Positions 630 through 63,449 of a stretch of 64,000 nucleotides of DNA are shown piece by piece. This stretch comes from Planoprotostelium fungivorum (Eukaryota > Evosea > Variosea > Cavosteliida > Cavosteliaceae): positions 62,001 to 126,000 of the forward strand of contig MDYQ01000121.1 in NCBI GenBank assembly GCA_003024175.1, read 5' to 3'. The notes below the pieces were generated by a model. The model made no database searches and had not been told where the DNA came from. It was given only the letters and a program-made list of their open reading frames with translations. Position numbers and translations under genes: made by a program. Numbering within the stretch: the first letter of the stretch is position 1; every line of letters begins with the position of its first letter.

Positions 630-3255
630 ATGAGAGGCCACACCATACAGGTAAGAGCCTTCGGCGATGGTACTTCTTCCGCAAGTTCGAGCCGCCTACC
701 ATCGAGAGGTGAGCTAATTCTGAATTCGCATGAATCTGAGACTGATGCAGATGGATTCTTCACTCCAAAGAAGAGGAACAGCTTTTCTCATCAGCTGATT
801 CACAATTTCTTCTCCGTGAGGAACGTACTGACGATCGTAATGATGATTCTCATGGCCGTCTGCCTCGCCACCATCTCTATTCTCAGTCATTCTTTCGAGA
901 AGCAGATCGTCGCTGCATTGAATGGGGACATCCTGTTGGGCAAGGAAGAGGACATCAACCATTCGATCGATCAAATCTGGCGGGAATTGGACACGGTGAT
1001 GAACGCCACCAACACTTTCCTCTTGGGAGAGTACCTACCCGTTCACGTAAACCTCACGACGTACGACTTACAAAACGGATCACTGCTCGATGCCTTCCCT
1101 CGTGTCTACAGTTTCTTCCTATCCCAAGTCGAGAGGAACATACAGGGGACCACTTTAGAATTCTACTGGGATTCAGGACAAACGATGGGGGTGGAGGCCA
1201 TCAACGGATACATCGACGCGTATGAGTATCATCTGGTGAATGGAACATGCTTTTGTAGAGGTCATACCATCAAGGCAGGTATGATGATCCGAGATGTGGT
1301 CATTCCAGAGTAAGTGATGGATGCTCATTTCAGTCGATGGACCAACTCATATGACAACAGTCCAAATCTGTATTACGATTTCGAGCTTCCCTTATCTTTC
1401 TACACTTCTAAATACGCATTATCCCAGCCAGTCTGTGGTTACAAGTGAGACTCTCCTAATCGGGTGATGATTGAGCCGTCCCAACAGATGGTATACGGAA
1501 TTTTATCTCCTCTTCCAAGAAGGTGCACCTAACCTCTTTCCCGTCACTCGGTGCCAGTACTTCTGCAACCACGAGGGAGTCTTCGTAGGGATGTACTGTC
1601 TCAGCACAGAGAGGAGACCGTGAGTGATGATGTTCGTGACCGATTTGATCCGTTAACGTTCACCTCAGGATCACGCTTTATCTCCAGGGAATCATTCAAG
1701 AGACCCCTGGAAAGTTATTGATCACATCATCAGATGGTCAGATCGTCAGCTCTTCTTCAGGTACCAATCCATTCCTTATTCTGAAACAGGGGTGAGTTTT
1801 TTCTTCGATTCGACGCCACTCTAACCTATTGGAAGCGTATCCTACGCATCGGTGTACGCCCAAAACGCCTCGGAAGCATGGATCAATCAGGTGAACATCG
1901 ATGGTGACATCTCATCGTAACCTCCACAGTTGGCTCCGTTTATGCACCAAGCTGAGGCACCAGCTTCGGGCCACATGATTGTAGATGGTGTACCTTACAC
2001 GTACAACGTGTTTTCACTCGAGAGTACGACCGGCTTGAATTGGATCGTCGGACAATTATTGGAAAAATCGAAGACGGATCGTCTCGTAGCCAACACCTTA
2101 GCGTGAGTCGATTGAATCTATCCTCGTCATCAAAATTGACGCACGACAGTCTCCAGATCGGTATCGATGCTGCCGTCATCTGCTTGTCTCTCATTTTGAC
2201 TTTCACGTTCACCTTCTACATCACAAGGCCCCTCAGGAGATTATGCTTCGAGTTGTCTCGCGTGGCCCATCTGGAATTAGACATGGAGATATTGCGAGTC
2301 CCCTTAGTAGAAGAGGGGAGGGTCTTACACCGAGCTTTCGTTCTGATGCACGCTGCCATCTCCAGCTTCCGTCGCTTCGTCCCGGCCGCTGTCATCGTGA
2401 ACATCCTCAAGACAGACGTGAGTCCCACCGATTCTCCATTCCTTCTCCATTGACCTCCCACAGAAAGAAGTCGTACCCGAGCTCAAATTGCGCGTGGCCA
2501 CCGTTGTCTTCCAAGACATTGTAGATTTCACCAAGATGTCGGAAGAGATTGAAGTTTCATCTTTGGCAGCTCTTACGTCAGAATACATGGATGCCATGAC
2601 CTCGATCATCCACCGCCACGGAGGAACCATAGACAAATACATCGGAGACTGCATCATGTCCATCTACAACGCGCCGAGCCGGGTCAACAATCACGAAGAA
2701 GCGGCAGTACGGGCCGCCCTGGAGTGCCAGAAGGAGCTGGAGCGGCTGAATCCTTCGTGGAGAATTCGTTACGGTTATACGCTCCACCAACGCATCGGCA
2801 TCCATACGGGGGACATGCTGGTAGGAACTATGGGATCCATCCATCGAATGAATTGGACTGCCATCGGCGACACCGTCAACGTGGCCGCTCGACTAGAGGG
2901 AGTCAACAAGTACTACGGGACGGAGTTGCTGACATCGGAGGCTGTGGCGACGAAGCTCAAGGGAGAAGAATTCCTGTGCAGACGGATCGCTACCGTGAGA
3001 GTTTCGGGCAAGCAGACACAGACCAGCATCTTCGAGGTGTCTAAAGACAAGACGAAGAGGGAGTTGTACGCGTCTTACGAGAGAGCTCTCGGCCAATTTC
3101 AGCGGAGGCAGTTTTCATTTGCGATGGAATCGATCGCGGAGGCTTTGGGTATCGACGGAAAGGACAGGCCCTCTCAGATTTTGAGGAGGCGGATCGAAGA
3201 GAACCAAGACTCGGCCGAGGACAGCTGGTCTTACGTAGAGAGTATCGTCAAGTGA
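630..3255 (+). CDS. membrane adenylate cyclase, class III
   Basis: This is a two-transmembrane class III nucleotide cyclase that would make cAMP from ATP at a membrane. Exons read through at least seven short introns (for example 1310-1360 and those near 1450, 1620, 1795, 1890, 2104 and 2418). Order: cytoplasmic N-terminus, hydrophobic helix near 830-890, an extracellular region of roughly 350 residues with several N-x-S/T sites (sensor-like), a second helix near 2170-2225, a HAMP-like linker, then the catalytic domain at about 2490-3020. Metal-binding aspartates lie in FQDIVDFT and KYIGD, and the transition-state pair in NVAARLE. A Lys (DKYIGD) paired with Thr (WTAIGD) at the purine pocket favours ATP over GTP. 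Both catalytic halves are in one chain, so it should act as a homodimer. The start at ATG 630 is uncertain; the frame stays open to 558 without another ATG. Confidence 0.85.
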
Positions 3256-3376: not shown

Positions 3377-6300
3377 TTATGTGGACTCTACATAAACATT
3401 ATCAAGCCCCGATGGCAAGCGATTCTTCCTCTCCTTCGTACTAGCAGATTCGAGGTACAGCTGCTTCAATCGATCATTGGCTTCTCTGTACTTGTGAATG
3501 TCTCCCTCCAAGCTGATTCTCCATCAGAACGTGGAGCGGTGACATCTTGTACGTCACCATTGTGTAGCTATATCGGTATAAACATCGGATGACCATCTCT
3601 GATCGTCTTTGTGGCTCAACCTCTGGTGTTGCACTTCCCTTTCACACAGTCAACTTTGAGCTCAGACGGTGAAGACATATTCACCACATGAACAAGCCCA
3701 ACTGCTTGACATCGTTCTTATCTTTACCTCCTGCACTTATCTGCAACCGTCAGCGATCATCATATCCTTTCAATAACTCTTATTCACGTGAAAACCATTT
3801 AGCTTAGAGATGTAATCTTTGTCCGCACATTTGACTAAGACGGTGGCGATCGACAGCTCGTCCAGTAACATCTATGTACACCTTTTAATCGAGAGATTAT
3901 ATCGAAAACTCACGTGGATATCATCCAGGTAGACCATGGCTGAAGATACATCCATGCATCTGTGAACCTGTCAATTTGAACCGTTTGACGTTCCACTCAC
4001 ATCTGTATCATCTGCAGGGGAGTCAGCTCCACTCTACCCCTCTCAAAGTGCTCTATATATAGACCGCTCGGACAATATTCCAATATGGTGCAGGCCTCTT
4101 CTTCAGCGTCGATGTAGTATCCGAAATATTGAACGATGTTCGGATGATGCAACCTCTGACATTTTCGTCGGTCACTCAAATCTGCGAAAAACATGCGACT
4201 CCCACCTGCACGATGGAGATCTGGTTCGTTGTAGTGGAAGATTCTTTGCTCTTTCTCACTACGACAGGTGTGTTCTGATATCGCGCTCGATGGATGACCG
4301 TACGGGGGCTACTGTAGATGACATCATCTGTGATCACGTGATCGGAGGACAGCTGAGTCGATAGATGATACATCTCCCTTCCCTTCGTAACTTCCTCGTA
4401 GCGCTTGCGTCTGTCATATGTCAGCTGAAATTTCGATGAATTTTCACCTGACGACCAGGTAGGCGACGACACCGATTGAGATGAAGAGGATACCACCTCC
4501 GACGCATGTCGTGATGATGATGATGAGACGGGTGTCATCGTTCTTCTTCGAGACGTTCGAAGGTTCGGCTCCGACCGAAAAGTTTGTGAGGTGATTGCAG
4601 TGACAGATCACGTGACGAGAATCAGAGAGGGTGGAGTTGCAGCCGTTTTTGGACCAAACGCGATCCTCTTCGATCCAGTGGAGACAAGTGGGTGCTACAG
4701 TGACGGTCAGACGAGACATCGTGACGGTGATGACCCGCGATGATCGCGATCGAGATCATCATGTGATCGATGGTGAGACGAAAGAGTCTCGAGATGAGAA
4801 ACGATCGATCGATCTCACCGTAGGAATAAGGTATAGAATCGAATGGTATCGTGATATTGATCGATTGCGTCGTGTTCTCCACGGATTTCTCTTCCCCTTG
4901 TGAATCGTACAGACTGACGCCGACGACAGGTGAATATCTGTGAGACGTGAGATGATCAAGTGGTACATCGACATCTTTACATCTGTCCACTGTCTATGGA
5001 TCCAAAGGCATTATAGGATAGACTGGATAAACTGAACGAGACGGCTGGAGAAAATTCAATGAAAGTTCAAAAAGCTACTTCCCGCTCACCCGTCTCGTTT
5101 CCCGCCACGATGTCCGGAAAATTCACGGAAATTTCGTTCAAGGATAAGTTGATGGCTGCGGTCGATTGTGACGTATTGTACGTAGTGACAGTCAGATTGA
5201 CATCTTTCGTACGTAAATTGAATGAGTTCTGGTCTCTCAACAACACGGAGGTAACAGCCGATACCAACTGAGGCACCTGCAGAGGTCATCATGATCATGA
5301 TCATGATCGTGATCGTGATCGTGATCGTGATCATCATCTATGACTCACCATAGAGCTTCTCGTGATATTCTCCAATAGAATCTGATCGTTACGTCACGAT
5401 TGGTCATCACATCTCCCCCACCTCCGCCTCCGTCACATCCAATCTCGTCGAACGATCGTACAATCCGTTCAGGACGTCCGCCACGTTACATACCGTGGGC
5501 GTCACGGTACAGTTGTGAACCTCTCGTAAATAACAAGGAAAGTTGTTGTGGCTGAGATCACATTGACTCAAAGTCAGATGACTCGAGAACACAACGCTCG
5601 TAAATAAATTGTAAGAGGCATCGAGCGCGGAGTTCTCAACGTAAATGGTTCCACGGAGAGAATTATTCTTCAGCAGAAGAGTCGTAATATTGTTTGTAGT
5701 GAGTGCATTGCTCGAATGCGTCAGAATGGAAGACGAAAGAAAGTCACATACTGTAAGAGGTTCGATTGGAAGATGGTGCCGGTGAGTTGACAGTCACTCA
5801 TGCTCAAGTAGGTCAGATGAGGTAGCTGGAAGAGCTGCGGTGGAATATTGGTGTTGAGTGGATTACCGTCCTGTGCCGCGTGAGATGCAGAGATGCAAGA
5901 TGGAGAAGAGATCATCTACGTCTAGATGATGTTCTCACCAAGATGATCTCGCGGAGAGATGTCATGTTGGTCAAGATGGATAAGATGCTTCCATTAAAAC
6001 GGTTGTGAGAGATATTGAGAGTTTGAAGTCGAGTCAGATTTGTGAAAGAAGAGGGAAGAGATCCGGAGATGTTCGACTCCTGTTGACGATGAACTCGATT
6101 GGAGAGGGGACAGCAGATGTGTTTACCAGGTGCAGAGTCGTCAGGTTTACCAAGTTTCCGATGCTAGGGTTGATGCTGCCGTTAAGAGGTCGATTCAAAG
6201 AGATGCCCGTCGGCCATTCTTCCCCCGGGTTCAGACCCTGACCGCAATTCAAACCTGGGAATGTACTGCAAATGAGCTGCGGAGGATGAACACTTAAGAT

Positions 6301-6508
6301 GAAGGTAAGGCACTCACTCGATTGTTCATTCCTCCATATTGTACTGTATAATCTGAATAGGGTTCAAATTGACGACCAAGGATGTATTGTACGACTCACT
6401 CTGACCAAGTTGCTGATATACGTCCACCAACCATTGATACGTCTGAAGTTCCAAAGTATTACATCCTAAACATAGATAGAGGATGACAGCACTCGTGAGG
6501 GGGTGCAT
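3377..6508 (-). CDS. LRR-GPS receptor pseudokinase
   Basis: This is a single-pass receptor with a signal peptide (start MHPLTSAVILYLCLGC), an N-terminal cap, leucine-rich repeats spread over exons at about 6260-5400, a GAIN-like stretch, a GPS motif at 4686-4570, a transmembrane helix at about 4527-4450 and a C-terminal kinase-like domain at about 4440-3560, followed by a short tail ending at 3377. The GPS keeps W-x6-W, the cysteines, CHCNHLTNF and the HL/T cleavage tripeptide. The kinase-like domain has the N-lobe motif HPNIVQYFG and a C-lobe helix NDVKQLGLFMW, but the catalytic residues are changed: the VAIK position reads VVVR, HRDLxxxN reads LDELxxxT, and DFG reads KLN. It is therefore probably a pseudokinase that signals by binding. 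Introns are about 40-60 nt; one contains a GATCRT microsatellite. Confidence 0.8.
4570..4686 (-). other. GPS autoproteolysis motif within the receptor
   Basis: The translated motif has the GPS pattern known from adhesion GPCRs and polycystin-1: C-L-H-W, W-S-x2-G-C and C-H-C-N-H-L-T-N-F-S. The HL/T tripeptide, where the GAIN domain cuts itself, is encoded at about 4593-4585. Here it sits between leucine-rich repeats and a single transmembrane helix rather than a seven-helix domain. Confidence 0.85.
5286..5338. repeat. GATCAT/GATCGT microsatellite in receptor intron
   Basis: About nine hexamer copies of GATCAT or GATCGT lie in an intron of the receptor gene. The tract is nearly self-complementary and could fold back on itself. 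It is one of several GATC- or GATGAT-rich intron tracts in the window. Confidence 0.85.
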
Positions 6509-6829: not shown

Positions 6830-9292
6830 ATGCAACATCCAGATGGAACTCCAATGACGTCGCGTCTATTCGAGGTGATTCTGTCTACAGATAACCAGTT
6901 TCATCCTCGATCCATCCTAGATTGTTTAAACTTTAACAGGCGGAATCTTATGCAGGGCTACTGAGCCGCTACCGATATCGCATCATGATCCAGTTGAAAA
7001 AGTACAACAATTACCGTGTGGCCGCCACCAATGATTTCGAGGCATTGAAGAACTGTTGGAACTACTGCACGCAGACAATTCCTACGTGAGAAGCGAAACG
7101 ATGTCTGGCAGACACCGTAGCTGATGGTGTGTTCAGTTTGATGCCAGCACATCTAAATGAACACGAACAATTTCAGTGGATCGAAACACACATCACCTTC
7201 TTGTATTACAATCAGGATGCAGCCGGAACATCAGGTATGACGAGGATGGAATGGTGATACCATCAACTCACACGATGCAGATCCGGAGGGACCCTCTTAC
7301 ATCGACTTAGACACGAGTGGCTCCTCTGACGATGATGACGATGATGATCCAGACAGCGACGACAGCTCCTTCCTCCCGGTGATGATCTTGACCCCGTCGC
7401 ATTTTATTGTATTTTATTCACGTCCCACCAGTCTTCTAATCGATTGGCATCCTCTCACGATACTCTACCCTCTCTACGCTCGAGTACCCCATCCCTGTAC
7501 GCCCGAAATTTCCTCCAGTTTTCTCACGTCTGTACAGGCATCATCAGCTGTCGAAGAGTGCACCCATCATACCCAGGGCAAATGCATCGGAGCCAACGAT
7601 CAACACGAGCACGAATTCTCTGAGGAACAGATGGTTCAGAAGTAGCTTTCGATCACCAAAGGTGGACGGTAGTAAGATGGTGAAGTTTAGATCTGATTGT
7701 ATCATTGCATGTGATCGCGATGGCGATCAGCCACGATCAATGATCGACACCACGATCGATGATGATCGACATCACGATCATCGATGTCGATCATGACCGG
7801 AGACTGACTCGTTGTAGACAAAGAGAGAAGAAGAGGTGGAGAAGATGGAGAAGGAAGTTCCATACAGTTCGATCGACACGAAGGCACGCAAGCATCTGAA
7901 TCCGACAGTTCTAAAGTACTTCCTCGAATACAAAGCATACCTCAAGAAGATATTCTCCAGTGAGTACTTCCCTTTCTTCATCAGCATCATTATCAGCATC
8001 ATTATCAGCATCATCATTATCCTCATCATCATCTTCCCCACCAGATCATCGTGAAGTGATCACGTGAGAGGGGGATGAAGAAAGAAAGTGGCAAATTGAC
8101 GCATCACAGTCGACGCAACGAGAGATGAAGAGACGATCAAATACCTCATCATCTTCATCACTGCCTTTCTCGTTGACATGTTCATCATACGCTACTGTTC
8201 CTTCGATTTATTCTTGGTGAGGACAGCTCATCCATCATCATCTAAATCTTTTCAGTTCCTGATGGCCATACATATCTATGGCATACGTCATCTTATCGTG
8301 GAGAGGAGGAAATATATCGTCCTCTTGGCAAAACGCAAGCTGAACAAGGCCGTGCAGAAGGAGAAGAGAAAGTGGTACAACCTCCTGAGCTTACGTCAGA
8401 CCATGCCCGAGGTCGTTCAAACAGTCAACGTGACGGCAGAGGTGACATCATCGTCTTAACCCATCACAATGATGAACATGTGATGTGCATGATGTGGAGA
8501 AGCTGAACTTATATAGACAACTGTGACGGCGGCAAACAATGAGATCGCAGTGAAATCAGAGAAGGAAGTCACGTGGACAAGGGTGGGCTGAGAATGCAAC
8601 TGTTCGCGCTGACAGAACTGCAGAAAGTGCCACTGTTGCCCGAAGACGAAGTTCGATGATGAATAAACTTGTTTTAGCGCTTATTAGCGTACCGATACGA
8701 ATTCCCACACCAACGCGAACACGAGCTGAAATTTCGCGAGTTGACATTCATTTCAGCATTAAAACATACATCGACAGCTGTGGGAGTCCTTCCTGAGAGA
8801 CCAATTCGTTCACGATGAACTAGAGGAAGAACATTTCACTCAGCTGGAAGGTGAAGGTCTCATCGCTACCTATCCTACATATTCCGCAGACGATCTGGCA
8901 ACAGCTGAAGCCAAGTACCTCACCCACGATAATGGAGGATGTCCCTACCTAGTGTCTACCATGACTCCGGAAAGGTCATACGTGTTTTCAGAAAGAGCGA
9001 ACAAGAGAGTGAAGACGTAGAAGTCAACTACGATCTGCCCGTGTTGGAGATCCCGCGAGCCATCCGGTTCTGGCCTGCCGTCGACAAAGGAGAACCAAGC
9101 TACCCTGATTTCCACCGAAAATTTGCAGAAGACACAAACCTGCCCTTCACTCTCTATTACAATGCGGAAGTGAAGTCAGAGCAGGTGCAGCTGACGACAA
9201 TCTTTTCACGCGAGATCTTCACGGCGACACGCAAGAGACCACTTCAAACACGTGGCGAAGATCAGAAGAGATCCATCGTGGAGACGACGTGA
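6830..9292 (+). CDS. unrecognised membrane protein
   Basis: I do not recognise the family. A consistent multi-exon model can be read: an N-terminal exon ending TSRLFE joins AESYAGLLSRYRYR; then exons with LYYNQDAAG, a run of seven aspartates (about 7330-7350), a Ser/Arg-rich segment, a Lys/Glu-rich helix, two hydrophobic segments near 8125-8290 (IKYLIIFITAFLVDMF and a following short one), a basic helical stretch, and a C-terminal region containing LWESFLRDQF and YPDFHRKFAEDTNL. The intron at about 8647-8777 would use an unusual GTTCGA donor. The alternative is two genes, the first ending at the TAA at 8664. The last join is best explained by a 38-nt intron ending CTAG near 8950. The start could also be 6719. 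The coding nature is fairly safe; function is unknown. Confidence 0.5.
7980..8016. repeat. 12-nt minisatellite in intron
   Basis: About three copies of a 12-nt unit (CAGCATCATTAT type) lie in a predicted intron of the membrane-protein gene, followed by more ATC-rich sequence. The reading frame through the tract gives only Ile/Ser repeats and is not taken as coding. Confidence 0.6.
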
Positions 9293-9576: not shown

Positions 9577-10936
9577 ATGGAGGAGATACCACAAGATGTC
9601 TGGAATGAGATCTTCCTCTATCTGCCCCTACCCGACCTCTTACCCATCGGCTTTACGTCGAGTGAATGGTGCCACTCTGTCCTCGAGATCTTCCCAGATC
9701 AGGAAGGTTACTCAGAGGACAATCTGATCAAGTTGGACAAGCAGCTTTATCCCTGTACCTCTGTAGAGCTGGTGCAGTGGTGGTCTACTTTCCACAAGCC
9801 CTGTGTGGCAGAATTTCGCAGAATATACCTTCTCAATCACTCAGAGCTTCTGGAGGTGAATCTGCAGATCTCAGTTTTGCTCGTTAACATTACTGATCAG
9901 AACATTAGTCTTCGAAAGCGGGTCTGTTGGAAATGGGATGCGACCGTGATTTACTTCGCTCTGTCACTGAAGGTGGCCACTTGGAATCGCTTCGCTGGAT
10001 CAACCAAGTTTTCGGCCCAGGCCAGATTCCAAAAGAGAATTGGTTCAGCGCCACAGGTGGAGCTGCTGCTCAAGGCAGGATACAGATTTTAGAGTTCCTG
10101 TTGCACCGTGAGGGCGGAAGACTGATGGTGGCCAAGAATCTGAAGCACGCTGCGGCCAATGGACAGATCCATGTCATCGAGTGGAGTATACAACAGGGAT
10201 TCGACAAGGAGATTCCTGGGATCGAGCGCGCCGCCATTAACGGAGGACAGCTGGACCTTCTCAAATGGCTGCAAGCACATGGACGCAACGTGCAGTCTGC
10301 CATATGCAACCGCTCTAAGACCATCATGCTCCCTCGTGCTGTCGATGACGAGTCTGCCGTCCAGCTGATGGAAGATTTCGTGCGACTGGGTGCCAAGCCC
10401 AATCAGTTCTCTCTGGCACAGATGATCCGCCAAGGCTACAAGGAGTCCATCACATATCTCCTCCGTGCAAAGTGAGACTTGTAGAAGAACACGATCTCAC
10501 TGTGTTCAGAGTCCCCTGGACAGTAGGCGACAGTGTCAAATGTCTCGTTCGCCACGGCCCTTCCTTCTACCAGTGGGCGAGAAAGACATTTTAGGTCGCC
10601 CCCATCGATCGCAACACACCGCGTGCCATGGTCGAAGCGGAATATGAGGGAAAAGCGGACAGCATCCTCTACCTCTACAACGAGGTGGGGCTGACACCTT
10701 GTTCGGACCGTCTCTTCGTGAAGAGTGGCGATCCGAGGAAGAGATCGTTAGAGACCCTGAGGAACGGGGGATATCCCATCGATGACATGGATGTGGTAGA
10801 GCTTAATCTCATGTTCAAGACCACCCATTACACACTTCATCATTTTGAGAAGACAGAGGAGGGAGACTTTCATGTGACAGAGGATGTGGAAGAAAATCTG
10901 AGGGAGGCCAGAAGACAGAGAATCACCGAGACGTAG
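9577..10936 (+). CDS. F-box and ankyrin-repeat protein
   Basis: The protein opens with an F-box (EIPQDVWNEIFLYLPLPDLL), the Skp1-binding module of SCF ubiquitin ligases, followed by degenerate ankyrin-type repeats (for example EGGHLESLRWI, ANGQIHVIEW, NGGQLDLLKWL) that would bind the substrate. ATG at 9577 is the natural start. A first intron runs from about 9858 to 9910. A frame-preserving intron of 72 nt (10523-10594, GTAGGC to TTTTAG) removes a TAG that would otherwise stop translation at 10592; the frame then stays open to TAG at 10934. Without that splice the protein ends at 10594 and the 3' part would be a separate small frame from ATG 10628. An AATAAA lies about 17 nt after the distal stop, which supports the longer model. 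Confidence 0.75.
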
Positions 10937-50830: not shown

Positions 50831-53613
50831 CTACCAGTGTTCCAGTTTACTGACATACCCCTCCGGTGTTGATTTTACGTCTGCTGTGTCCCTCTTTGTC
50901 TTTCTCATCCACTTTTTGAAGGCCAACTCCTTCGGTTGTTTCGTCAAGGCCCCTCCCGGTGTGAAATGAACCACCATGCGGAACTGTGTCTTCTCTAACA
51001 AGAAATCCGCCAGCGACTGCATCATTGGTCAATCATCCGAAATGATACGGACGCAATGGATAGAAATGACTCACCCTGTTGACGCCAATATCTTCTGGAC
51101 GCACGAGATAGTGCTTGACTGCCTCTGATGGATCGTCGGTCACGTAGCTGAGGGCAAACTGCCCAGCAGCCGAGTCACTGAAACGGATGAGGAAGTCTCC
51201 AACACTCTGACTCTCTAAGACCTTCTTGCACTCTGCTTTCGTGGCAAGAGAATAGATGAGTCTGGACCACGTTCAACATCGACGCGGAACCTCTAAAGCC
51301 TCACCCCTCGTACCACATGGGCCGGATGTATCGTTTGAACTTGATGGTGCAGATGACGTGGCCGAGCCAGTCCCAACACGTCTTGACTTGTTCGCTCAGG
51401 GCCTTCGTGCTCCTTCCTATAGAGGATGAGCATCGTGATGGTGATACGGATGATGATGTGAACGCACCGAAAAACCTCTCGGACAAATAAGAGAAGTCGG
51501 CATCACCAAAGACTCTTCTGAGATTGTCTATGGGCTGTTGTGTCGCAGTGAGGAGATGTCTCTGTAAGACGTTGCAGAAGAAGGGCCAAGGGATCGACCT
51601 CTGTGTTTCAAGATGAGAAGTCGATGCGATGAGAAGCCCGGTGATGCGATCAGATGTTGATGTGAGAAGTCGATGATGAAAGATGGACGGTGGACTACTT
51701 ACAGAATTAGAAGAAGGGAACATGTCCTTGTCGATGAGTCGATACGCTGCCTCCGGCCATTGACTTTCGTTCGTGATGACGATGATGGGTGCCGACGGAA
51801 CGGACGTGACTTCTAAGAGCTTCCCCTCTGTCCTTCGTCACCCCATTCATCTACACGTTTGTAGATCGTCCGAACTCACTCGACTTGATTCTCGTTACGA
51901 ACTGGAGGCTGATGGGACCCATTCGTGTGGACATGTTGACCTTGATGTCTCTGTAGATCGTCTCCGATGGTTGTCCACTGGGATGGCCTTGGTTGTTCTC
52001 CAGTAGAGGCCCCTTGGCCGCATCAGTCGACCAAGACGATTCTTCGCAGATCCTGGCCTTCGTGTTCTCGTGGACGACTGAGATGATGATCAGACGCGAT
52101 GATGTGATGGGTGTCGTGAATCGTCGATGGATATATCAAATCGACGATGTGGATCACGCATCATCGATGTGATGTGTTGATGAGGTTCACCTTCGTATTG
52201 ATTCAATCTCGCCCCCGTTATGAGTTTGATGATGTAATTTGAATCGAGGGGTCTTCCCTTGAATACCACCTGTCTACTGTGAGCTCACCTCAAATCTGCG
52301 CGTCGCAGATGCTCCACTCACCTGACCCAGCGCCTGCTCTTTGATGACGAGAGTGGCCATGTGGCTGTTTGGGTCAATCTACAACGAGCCGATGAGAACT
52401 CACGCCGAATTTGTTTCTTCCGTCAGACCCTGCAGCTCCCTCCTCAATAGCTCTACCTTCTGGTGTTGTTCGTGGATGAGAGAATTTATCTTTGAAGACT
52501 CGTACAGCTCCACCGGCCTCAACACATAATTGTGAATCAAATTCTTTAAATTCTCCGCGTCAGTCTGCACTTCCTTGTGCAGAGAGAAGTAGACCTTTCA
52601 CATGTGAGCGATGGACGAGACACTCGATCGTGATGGTCTTCACCTGTTGCAGTCGTGCGAACTCGTCTGTGTTTTGGACGGTGACTTTCGATTGGGCCGC
52701 CTCTGATTTCGTGATGACCATCTCTCGACTGTCTAAAGCGGCTCTCAATTGTTGCAGCGTCTTCTTGACTTCCTCGTATGCGGCTGCCACGCTCGATTTC
52801 GTCGTGGATCGCTGCAGAGGCTGTGGTGCGGGGAAGATCGTCATAGTGTTGTTCTCTCTGATGGGGATGACTGTTGTGCTTCCGTTATTTGTCTTGTTCT
52901 TCGACTTGTTGCCGTTCGTCTTGTCGTTGTCACTGTTGATCGCGCCAGTTTTTTCATCGCCGCCGAGAACGATGCGAGATGGAGGTAAAGAGGATGATGT
53001 CGATGACGATGAGCGGAGGATGGGGATGTTGAGAGGTGGTCGGGTCTCTTCGGTCGTCGATGGAGTCTCACCCATGTAGAGATCGGCAGGTAGCTCGGCC
53101 TCGAATGCGGCGTCGGCCTCGGATGAGTCATAAAGAGGTCCGTGGTACGTGATGGATCTCACCTTCACCATGGCAGAGGCGCGAAGACCTGATCCCATAT
53201 CTCCCCCTGATGTGTCCAAGATGGGTGGTTCGAATGGATCGATATTACTCTGGATGAGGGAGGATAGTGTCAGACCTCGCATCGTCGCTCCCTCCTCGTC
53301 ATTTTGAGAGGACATATCTCCCGTATCGATTCCGAACCAAAAAGGGTATCGTGTGTCTGATTCGGGTGGCAATCTGATTTCGGTCAATGATGATTGGAGT
53401 GCGAATGGAATGCATTGGGACATCGATGAGAATCATTAATATCGAGGGGAACCACTTGATATAAACTATGTATAATGTAATGATTGTGTATTGAATGGAA
53501 TGGAACATGCTAAAGTGTATGATTTGAACTCACTCGGACAGAAGATCTGCGGCTTCTGCTAATATATCGTCCGGTATACCAAAGAATTCGTCAATTTCTA
53601 CTTTATACTCCAT
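50831..53613 (-). CDS. STAT transcription factor
   Basis: Order of parts: an N-terminal exon MEYKVEIDEFFGIPDDILAE, joined over an AT-rich intron of about 165 nt to LPPESDTRYPFWFG; a long Ser/Asn-rich region; a coiled coil (YEEVKKTLQQLRAALDSREM); a DNA-binding region with VVFKGRPLDSNYIIKLITGARLNQY and MGPISLQFVTR; the linker VKTCWDWLGHVICTIKF; an SH2 domain with SVGDFLIRFSDSAAGQFALSYV (the phosphotyrosine-binding Arg is present); and a C-terminal GYVSKLEHW, where the Tyr fits the site phosphorylated in STATs to drive dimer formation. It resembles dictyostelid STATs. About twelve introns are inferred. On activation it should move to the nucleus. No JAK is needed in amoebae; the kinase is unknown. 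Confidence 0.87.
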
Positions 53614-61925: not shown

Positions 61926-63449
61926 ATGGAACTTGTATGCGATATCCTATAAAATTTTGTATTATGAGGTGAAACGTGTCTTTCGTGTGATGAGGAGGAT
62001 GGTTGTTTGATGGTGTAATGAAGTAGTGATCGATGGTGACTCCACCGATGTATGGGACGACGGAGAAAGTGTAGACACGACGTCAACTTCGTTCTTTTAT
62101 CTATGACATTCCTTCTCCAAGCCTATAGGTTCAGACCCGAGTATATATCAGGCCTCAAGATGAGACCAAGTATGAGAGAATCACCGTCCAATGCCCGTGG
62201 TCAATGCAACAGGTCAGGCAGAGCCGAAGTTCTGTATTTGATAGAAAATGAACCGGAGTCTTTTAGTGTCATCGTCTTTATGGTATCTACATTCAGATTC
62301 CTCTCTCCGATCCGTCCTGTTTGAGCGTCCTCCTTGTGCCTCTTCTGTGGGGTTCTTGTATGACCCGTCGCAATTTGGTGGTTTGCTCGAACTCGGCTTC
62401 TCTTCTAATGGATATCCTTTCGTCGTCTACCTCATGTTCTCCTCTTCATCTCATCGCATCATCCCGTCGATCATTGCAGTGCGATTGTGGTGTGCCGCTC
62501 TCCGTGTCAAATATCGGTAGCGTCTTTCATCCTCTTCGTTAAAGCATGTGGCTTCTCGCCGCTGTGTCTGTTGGATTGTGGCTATCCAGCCCTCTTCCTC
62601 GCTCTTCCACTCCTTACGGTGCAAAAGGTCCGTTTTTTTTAATCCTAAACTCTCTCGAAAGGTTGATCGAGTGTCAGATGTAGCAGGTTAATTCCTGGGG
62701 GGCGATTTCACAGGTAAGAGGAAATCTTTTCACGAAGCGGTGAGAGGATGCTGAGGAGAGACCGCAGCACTGTACTGGCACTTCCAGGGATGCGGAGTTT
62801 GAAGGCGTTGCCCGGTGACACACCGTGGCGCTTCGTGAAGGAGCCACCCCTTTTACTTTACTTTCTATAGAATGTGCTACGTTGGCCAGCTCAGAAGAGA
62901 TAGGAAGTGGGCATCGCACTTCCATTGGATATTCCCAACTTCCTGGTTTTCTACCCTCGGTAGCGTCAACGGATGTGTCGCTGGCGTCTCATGGACACGG
63001 TGGAAGGCTGGATGGGGAGATAGAGGATAGAACGTGGGGAGACAAGGGATGGCATCTTGCGTTGTTCTGTTCAGATGAAAGATTCTTCACCGTCTTGACA
63101 TCTCGAATGAAATCAAGATTCTTACGGTGAATACGCCAACAAGTGAACAGATAGACTTAACCTGTTCGTTCAAGTAGAACACTCTAATTGAGTTCATCTA
63201 AATTATTCGATGAAGAAAATACACAAAAAGATGCGACTCCTTGGTGAGCAAGGTTCTTTGTTGAATAACTATCCCTCTGAACAGAAGAAACAAGCTTTGT
63301 TAATAAATGGACGAGAGTTCTTCTAAAATGACGTCAGAGCATGAGCTCGGAAAATCAAGTCACGTGATCTACATCCACGTCATTTCGAGTAATACAGAAT
63401 TTCGTTGGGCATCATCTCTTTACATCAGCCCCCACAACAAACAAACGCC
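61926..63449. other. gene-poor interval of 1.5 kb
   Basis: This is the largest gap without a recognised protein gene. A short ATG frame at 62547 reads MWLLAAVSVGLWLSSPLPRS, which looks like a signal peptide, then runs into a possible donor, but no later exon could be joined. Frames at 62052-62542 and 62825-63130 have no family resemblance. A strong inverted repeat lies at 62730-62838 (listed separately). Confidence 0.35.
62730..62838. ncRNA. candidate structured RNA with closing stem
   Basis: The ten bases TCACGAAGCG (62730-62739) are perfectly complementary to CGCTTCGTGA (62829-62838), with a further GGTG/CACC pairing just inside after a small bulge. The enclosed sequence of about 90 nt is GC-rich compared with its surroundings. 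The stem lies in a region with no protein gene. I could not match it to RNase P, SRP, U-type or telomerase RNA. Confidence 0.25.

Follow-up and report, generated by a model that had tools for sequence, protein, structure and literature searches.

GPS-bearing single-pass receptors with tyrosine-kinase-type, mostly degenerate kinase-like domains in Planoprotostelium fungivorum

GAIN autoproteolysis is usually discussed as exposing a peptide to a seven-transmembrane (7TM) bundle. A gene of Planoprotostelium fungivorum carries a GPS motif between leucine-rich repeats (LRRs) and a single transmembrane (TM) helix, followed by a kinase-like domain, and raises the question of what a cut would do without a 7TM pocket. 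A family that combines a GAIN domain, one TM and a kinase or pseudokinase lets this be asked, and separates shedding from tethered agonism. The gene lies in a stretch of 64,000 nt (positions 62,001 to 126,000 of contig MDYQ01000121.1, assembly GCA_003024175.1), here called the window, to which the coordinates below refer unless a contig is named.

The window receptor gene

The exons of the predicted gene were connected manually across GT..AG introns of 37-124 nt, with splice sites inferred from the sequence. This model was used rather than the output of the gene predictor, which at several loci ran on into adjacent genes; at other loci its output was used only close to the GPS. The 739-aa reading has a single terminal stop and no internal stop, and a suspected frame break in the kinase exon was rejected, as it is an ordinary 50-nt intron at 4205-4156. 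Introns 5, 16 and 17 of the 17 have weak acceptors (GAG, AAG and AAG, respectively) that were picked to hold the frame, so the last exon joins are the least sure. The features are as follows.

3377..6508, (-) strand: whole gene model, predicted, 18 exons, 739 aa, joined by hand
6461..6508, (-) strand: probable signal peptide MHPLTSAVILYLCLGC, first exon read by eye
5677..6168, (-) strand: LRRs, aa about 82-193 (Pfam LRR_8, 2.1e-8; also LRR_14, LRR_4 and LRR_1)
4693..5490, (-) strand: predicted GAIN domain 5' of the GPS, aa 256-413 (family profile against PDB, ADGRG2 top)
4573..4692, (-) strand: GPS motif PTCLHWIEEDRVWSKNGCNSTLSDSRHVICHCNHLTNFSV (PF01825)
4585..4593, (-) strand: HL/T cleavage triad, from the sequence
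4450..4527, (-) strand: single TM helix LIIIITTCVGGGILFISIGVVAYLVV, from the sequence
3558..4330, (-) strand: tyrosine-kinase-like domain, catalytically degenerate, approximate bounds (PF07714, 2.7e-12, aa 541-646)
3857..3865, (-) strand: HRD replaced by LDE, aligned by eye to the intact paralog C33_10946
3791..3799, (-) strand: DFG replaced by NGF, from the sequence
3380..3403, (-) strand: C-terminal tail D-N-V-Y-V-E-S-T with an acidic-x-Tyr motif, from the sequence

The initial annotation had placed a GPS motif at 4570-4686, and PF01825 confirms it at 4573-4692 on the (-) strand. A six-frame genome-wide search gives the match 48.9 bits (E 4.5e-11), and it persists in the spliced protein at 44.2 bits (2.7e-11); the cut-off is 22.5 bits. 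Both Trp, all four Cys and the HL/T triad are present. In the 739-aa protein the Pfam matches follow the order LRR_8 (34.3 bits, cut-off 27), GPS and PF07714 (47 bits, cut-off 23.1), and the TM helix begins 16 residues past the GPS match. The layout that the annotation described, LRRs, GPS, one TM and a kinase-like domain, is thus found within one gene model, and the GPS, TM and kinase loop keep this order in paralogs. The architecture, with a GAIN/GPS between the LRRs and the TM, is well supported.

The stretch ahead of the GPS was compared with solved chains using a profile of 12 family members, 168 positions long, with the GPS at its end. Adhesion GPCRs are the 23 best of its 28 matches, with ADGRG2 first (2e-15). 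When the GPS is left out of the profile, ADGRG2 is still top at 6.9e-4 (two sequences of one receptor, 128 positions aligned) and is the only adhesion GPCR among the six matches up to E 10, with an LRR protein as the runner-up at 0.031. The Pfam GAIN model PF16489 gives no matches in the genome, and its controls are equally silent. From these profile comparisons, the stretch before the window GPS is predicted to be GAIN subdomain B.

The kinase-like domain is altered, as read by eye, at all five positions: K to R, E to Q, HRD to LDE, N to T and DFG to NGF. Its C-lobe appears shortened. Compared with PDB, the domain matches CSK first, then BTK, BMX, ITK and others; the 60 matches listed of 388 are mostly tyrosine kinases, with two MAP3K12 entries and one for a calcium-dependent kinase. 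Two intact members of the family match tyrosine kinases only, among the 60 matches listed of 1716 and of 1355. A plant-type RLK/Pelle kinase was rejected, since the nearest solved chains are tyrosine kinases for the window domain and for two paralogs. Judged by its sequence, the domain is of the tyrosine-kinase type with degenerate catalytic positions. The gene has the layout of a receptor tyrosine kinase (ectodomain, one TM, tyrosine-kinase-type domain), and with its catalytic residues lost it falls among the receptor tyrosine pseudokinases.

A family of GPS loci and its kinase-like domains

In the genome (36.86 Mb in 471 contigs), the six-frame PF01825 search finds at least 150 GPS matches above the cut-off. 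This count comes from scoring 150 of 176 candidates, all of which passed, one with an in-frame stop, and some of the 150 may be copies on duplicated contigs. None of 14 control genomes has a PF01825 match over the cut-off, so the GPS match is not a chance one. For scale, the human adhesion GPCRs number 33 (PMC6287011). The loci are clustered, with 59 of the 150 lying less than 10 kb from another; 200 random placements that ignored contig ends gave 12 on average and at most 25.

Sixty-eight of the 150 loci were read. They comprise a first set of 42 (the 30 top-scoring and 12 others within stretches from contigs C1-C33), six hand-picked for a strong adjoining kinase match, and 20 taken randomly out of the other 102. 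When copies that agree at 97% across 500 nt are merged, the 68 loci become 66. H-[LF]-T is kept in all 68, the window's included, as HLT in 67 and HFT in one. The GPS cysteines are kept in 67 (C1), 61 (C2), 68 (C3) and 52 (C4) loci. All seven loci that lack Cys 2 also lack Cys 4, a hint that the two pair, although related copies inflate this count. A hydropathy scan in three frames found a single TM segment in 57 of the 68 loci, two in six and none in five.

The ectodomains vary. Of the 21 loci with 4 kb or more of sequence, 15 have a strict LRR motif upstream (18 of 42 overall; antisense 0), though in tandem arrays the motif may be a neighbour's. The window gene scores 0 by this strict pattern, yet matches Pfam LRR models. 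Among other ectodomains searched with Pfam, C1_231845 gives LRRs, C1_290502 gives the GPS alone, and C33_10946 gives no match. The LRR-less ectodomains of L032 (C1_290502) and L042 (C5_24593) resemble bulb-type lectin repeats by eye. A Ser/Thr-rich subfamily (L002, L005-L008, L010, L014-L016 and related loci on C196, C335 and C1) has long linkers with TTSSTTSTT repeats before the GAIN domain; it forms tandem arrays, with highly similar copies on several contigs.

In 41 of the first 42 loci, a segment resembling the catalytic loop lies 216-277 codons (introns included) 3' of the GPS, and a similar distance was found in 23 of the 26 further loci, giving 64 of 68. The four loci without a located loop are C196_626 (where the GPS was mislocated), C351_55341, C99_259892 and C36_60513. 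In these segments, read by eye, the catalytic Asp is absent in 56 of 64 and kept in eight, or in 7 of 62 once copies are merged at 97%. The first set keeps it in 3 of 41 loci, two of which are copies of a single gene, the random set in 2 of 17, and the loci picked for their kinase in 3 of 6. Across loci the Asp is substituted by 11 different residues. HxD and the N are kept together in six of the 64, and HxD, N and the DFx Asp in three (C33_10946, C109_175681 and C149_202326).

The profile matched the N-lobe in 46 loci; the other 22 of the 68, the whole Ser/Thr-rich group among them, are excluded from the Lys and Glu counts. The beta3 Lys position holds K in 43 of these 46, R in two (one being the window gene) and M in one. 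The alphaC Glu is kept in all 42 profile-matched N-lobes with a residue there.

Selection on the catalytic-loop region differs between groups. In a group of 14 loci, of which 12 lack the Asp, the median dN/dS over 58 pairs is 0.23, so that clear purifying selection acts on this group at least. Taken over all 770 pseudokinase pairs, the median is 0.57, with a pooled pN/pS of 0.74. In the other pseudokinases either constraint is weaker or saturation hides the signal.

Tail, stalk and a possible mode of signalling

Many members have an acidic-x-Tyr motif a few residues ahead of the stop, as in DPYSQI, DNVYVE, DAYGVVEI and FDPYAMNS. Among loci with enough sequence, the pattern was found in 36 of 47 sense tails vs 6 of 47 antisense, a count from three frames and inferred splicing with a pattern that was framed after seeing the tails and scored on the same loci; it is absent in 11 of the 47. 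Other sense windows contain it in 6 to 16 of 47. Swapping Ser for Tyr in the pattern also gives 36 of 47 sense, but then 35 of 47 antisense, and of the 20 residues tried at this position Tyr has the largest sense excess. When loci are collapsed at 70% GPS identity, the tail remains in 14 of 21 sense vs 4 of 21 antisense. None of the four assessed members that keep HxD and N has the tail vs 36 of 43 others (Fisher p 0.002), though three of these four belong to the hand-picked loci. Among all six of those the tail occurs once, and some ends may fall outside the sequence read.

The genome also has 86 SH2 matches and 48 exon-level PTP matches. One of the SH2 matches lies in the window at 51084-51242 on the (-) strand (PF00017, 7e-10). 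Two PTP matches, C12:261202-261894 and C13:73998-74690, score identically, which suggests that the assembly contains duplicated contigs. Long single-exon kinase frames form arrays on C65 and C190.

After HL/T, the stalk begins T-x-F in all 68 loci. Adhesion GPCRs have Leu at stalk position 6. Here that position is G in 46, Q in 15 and A in five of the 68, while position 7 is V, I, A or L in 54, so that some hydrophobic character is left. In the window gene no 7TM domain follows the GPS, only one TM and then the kinase-like domain. A search with 7tm_2 gave no matches in the genome, and its control was likewise silent. The stalk position 6 and the single TM make a tethered agonist of the 7TM type unlikely, and such a peptide was rejected as a candidate. 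The initial annotation had suggested a tethered peptide beside a single-pass receptor; with G or Q at position 6 in 61 of 68 loci and no 7TM bundle, a peptide that acts like the Stachel of adhesion GPCRs is unsupported.

On balance we favour the view that the family consists of cleavable adhesion receptor tyrosine pseudokinases that are phosphorylated in trans. The domain order, GAIN homology, intact triad, kinase type, lost catalytic residues, tail motif and presence of SH2 and PTP domains are read from the DNA; cleavage, shedding, signalling by trans-phosphorylation and the type of ligand are what we infer. In this model the ectodomain (the LRRs in the window receptor) would bind a ligand. 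The GAIN domain would cut itself at HL/T, leaving two fragments held non-covalently. A ligand bound under tension would pull the LRR fragment away and release a short membrane stub, which might then change its pairing within the membrane. The dead kinase would act as a partner or scaffold, and the tail Tyr would be phosphorylated by an active kinase, either a rare intact family member or a cytosolic tyrosine kinase, to be read by SH2 proteins. The acidic-x-Tyr tail together with the SH2 and PTP matches is the basis for the trans-phosphorylation step, and HER3, which works with active ErbB kinases, is its model. Recognition of prey, self or microbes would be a fitting role for receptors that expanded in tandem and vary in their ectodomains. 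More tentatively, this unicellular eukaryote may use self-cleaving single-pass receptors as a main recognition system, with a few active GAIN tyrosine kinases and well over 100 GAIN pseudokinases with phosphotyrosine tails, where force-driven loss of the ectodomain gates trans-phosphorylation.

The GAIN/GPS might instead be an uncut or closed structural stalk, and the proteins adhesion molecules with a relic kinase-like part. The loss of the Asp in 56 of 64 loci would fit this, as would the loss of GPS C4 in 16 and C2 in seven of 68, a position 6 without the agonist pattern of adhesion GPCRs, and the dN/dS of 0.57 across all pseudokinase pairs. Some GAIN domains also stay uncut, which counts against cleavage. 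We consider a stalk with a relic kinase unlikely nonetheless: H-[LF]-T stays fixed in a GPS that varies elsewhere, the N-lobe keeps its beta3 Lys and alphaC Glu where readable, in one group a catalytic loop that is mostly dead is still under purifying selection, and the tail has its tyrosine. The kept Lys (43 of 46 readable N-lobes) and the three of 64 loci with HxD, N and the DFx Asp could also be taken to mean that these are active kinases with an unusual catalytic mechanism, of which WNK and CASK are exceptional examples, rather than pseudokinases. The eleven different residues in place of the Asp, and a window gene altered at all five positions, make this improbable.

It is a little less probable still that the stub left after the cut acts as an agonist in the manner of adhesion GPCRs, on a partner 7TM receptor or on its own receptor. 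The invariant T-x-F and the hydrophobic position 7 in 54 of 68 loci would agree with such a role, but G or Q at position 6 in 61 of 68, the single TM and the lack of 7tm_2 matches in the genome (with a silent control) speak against it. The least probable reading, which we rate very low, is that the gene model fuses neighbours and that the LRR, GPS-TM and kinase exons are transcribed separately. The joins were indeed chosen by hand from the sequence, with three weak acceptors; yet one stop-free frame runs through all 18 exons, the loop follows the GPS at similar spacing in 64 of 68 loci, and the LRR motif lies upstream in 15 of 21 loci and never antisense, allowing for a tandem neighbour's LRR.

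Relation to known receptors and the surrounding genes

The family shares GAIN subdomain B, a GPS with HL/T and a large ectodomain with the adhesion GPCRs (ADGRG2, ADGRG6, ADGRL), and ADGRG2 is the best solved relative of its GAIN domain by sequence. It differs from them in having one TM and an internal tyrosine-kinase-type domain in place of seven TMs, and in the lost pattern at position 6. The PKD1-like proteins, with polycystin-1, likewise have a GAIN domain with a GPS outside the GPCR family, and are described as the only other family known with GAIN domains (PMC11697300, 2025). The window receptor lacks their multi-TM polycystin part and has one TM. PKD_channel has 11 matches in the genome, none beside any of the 150 GPS matches (the nearest is 10.9 kb away), and the Pfam scan of the window protein found neither PLAT nor REJ. 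If the more tentative reading of a main recognition system is true, these proteins would form a third GAIN receptor class alongside adhesion GPCRs and polycystins, perhaps the most numerous of any genome.

Receptor tyrosine pseudokinases (HER3, PTK7, ROR1/2, RYK, EphB6 and others) have the tyrosine-kinase fold with catalytic residues lost and one TM, as here. They make up about 10% of the receptor tyrosine kinase family (PMC13259870). In P. fungivorum, in contrast, the dead form is the large majority of the loci read, and the ectodomain has a GAIN/GPS; the family offers many natural receptor tyrosine pseudokinases beside few apparently intact relatives. The pairing of active kinase and pseudokinase proposed here resembles that of OLD-1 and FLOR-1, species-specific receptor tyrosine kinases of the C. 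elegans KIN-16 family that act in pathogen recognition (PMC10523662). Those are animal proteins, and the part of that paper available to us makes no mention of GAIN/GPS.

Plant and oomycete LRR receptor kinases have an LRR-TM-kinase layout (PMC3268121), but their kinases are of the RLK/Pelle type, whereas the window gene has a tyrosine-kinase type and a GAIN/GPS between the LRRs and the TM. Acanthamoeba has a comparable amoebozoan toolkit of tyrosine kinases, SH2 domains and PTPs, with 22 protein tyrosine kinases, seven with a predicted TM (PMC4053784). These are far fewer, and GPS goes unmentioned in the available portion of that source. As far as the consulted text of PMC10445921 extends, no GAIN was found in family 2 GPCRs of Amoebozoa, and the fusion of GAIN and 7TM has been placed in stem Holozoa, with both domains present in other genes outside Holozoa (PMC12716839). 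Among the top-ranked open papers on GPS or GAIN with LRRs, kinases and amoebae or protists, no title or abstract opening describes this layout, though it may stand unremarked in subscription papers or in protein databases with automatic domain tables.

In the window, a convergent neighbour at about 630-3255 on the (+) strand ends about 120 bases from the receptor stop. By eye it encodes a membrane protein, and it has a class III adenylate/guanylate cyclase domain in 2422-3255 (PF00211, 3.2e-19). An open frame with weak ankyrin repeats lies at 9909-10475 on the (+) strand (PF13637, 9.9e-5). GATC-rich simple repeats with GATCATGATC units occur at about 5285-5340 and 7690-7800, one of them within an intron of the receptor gene.
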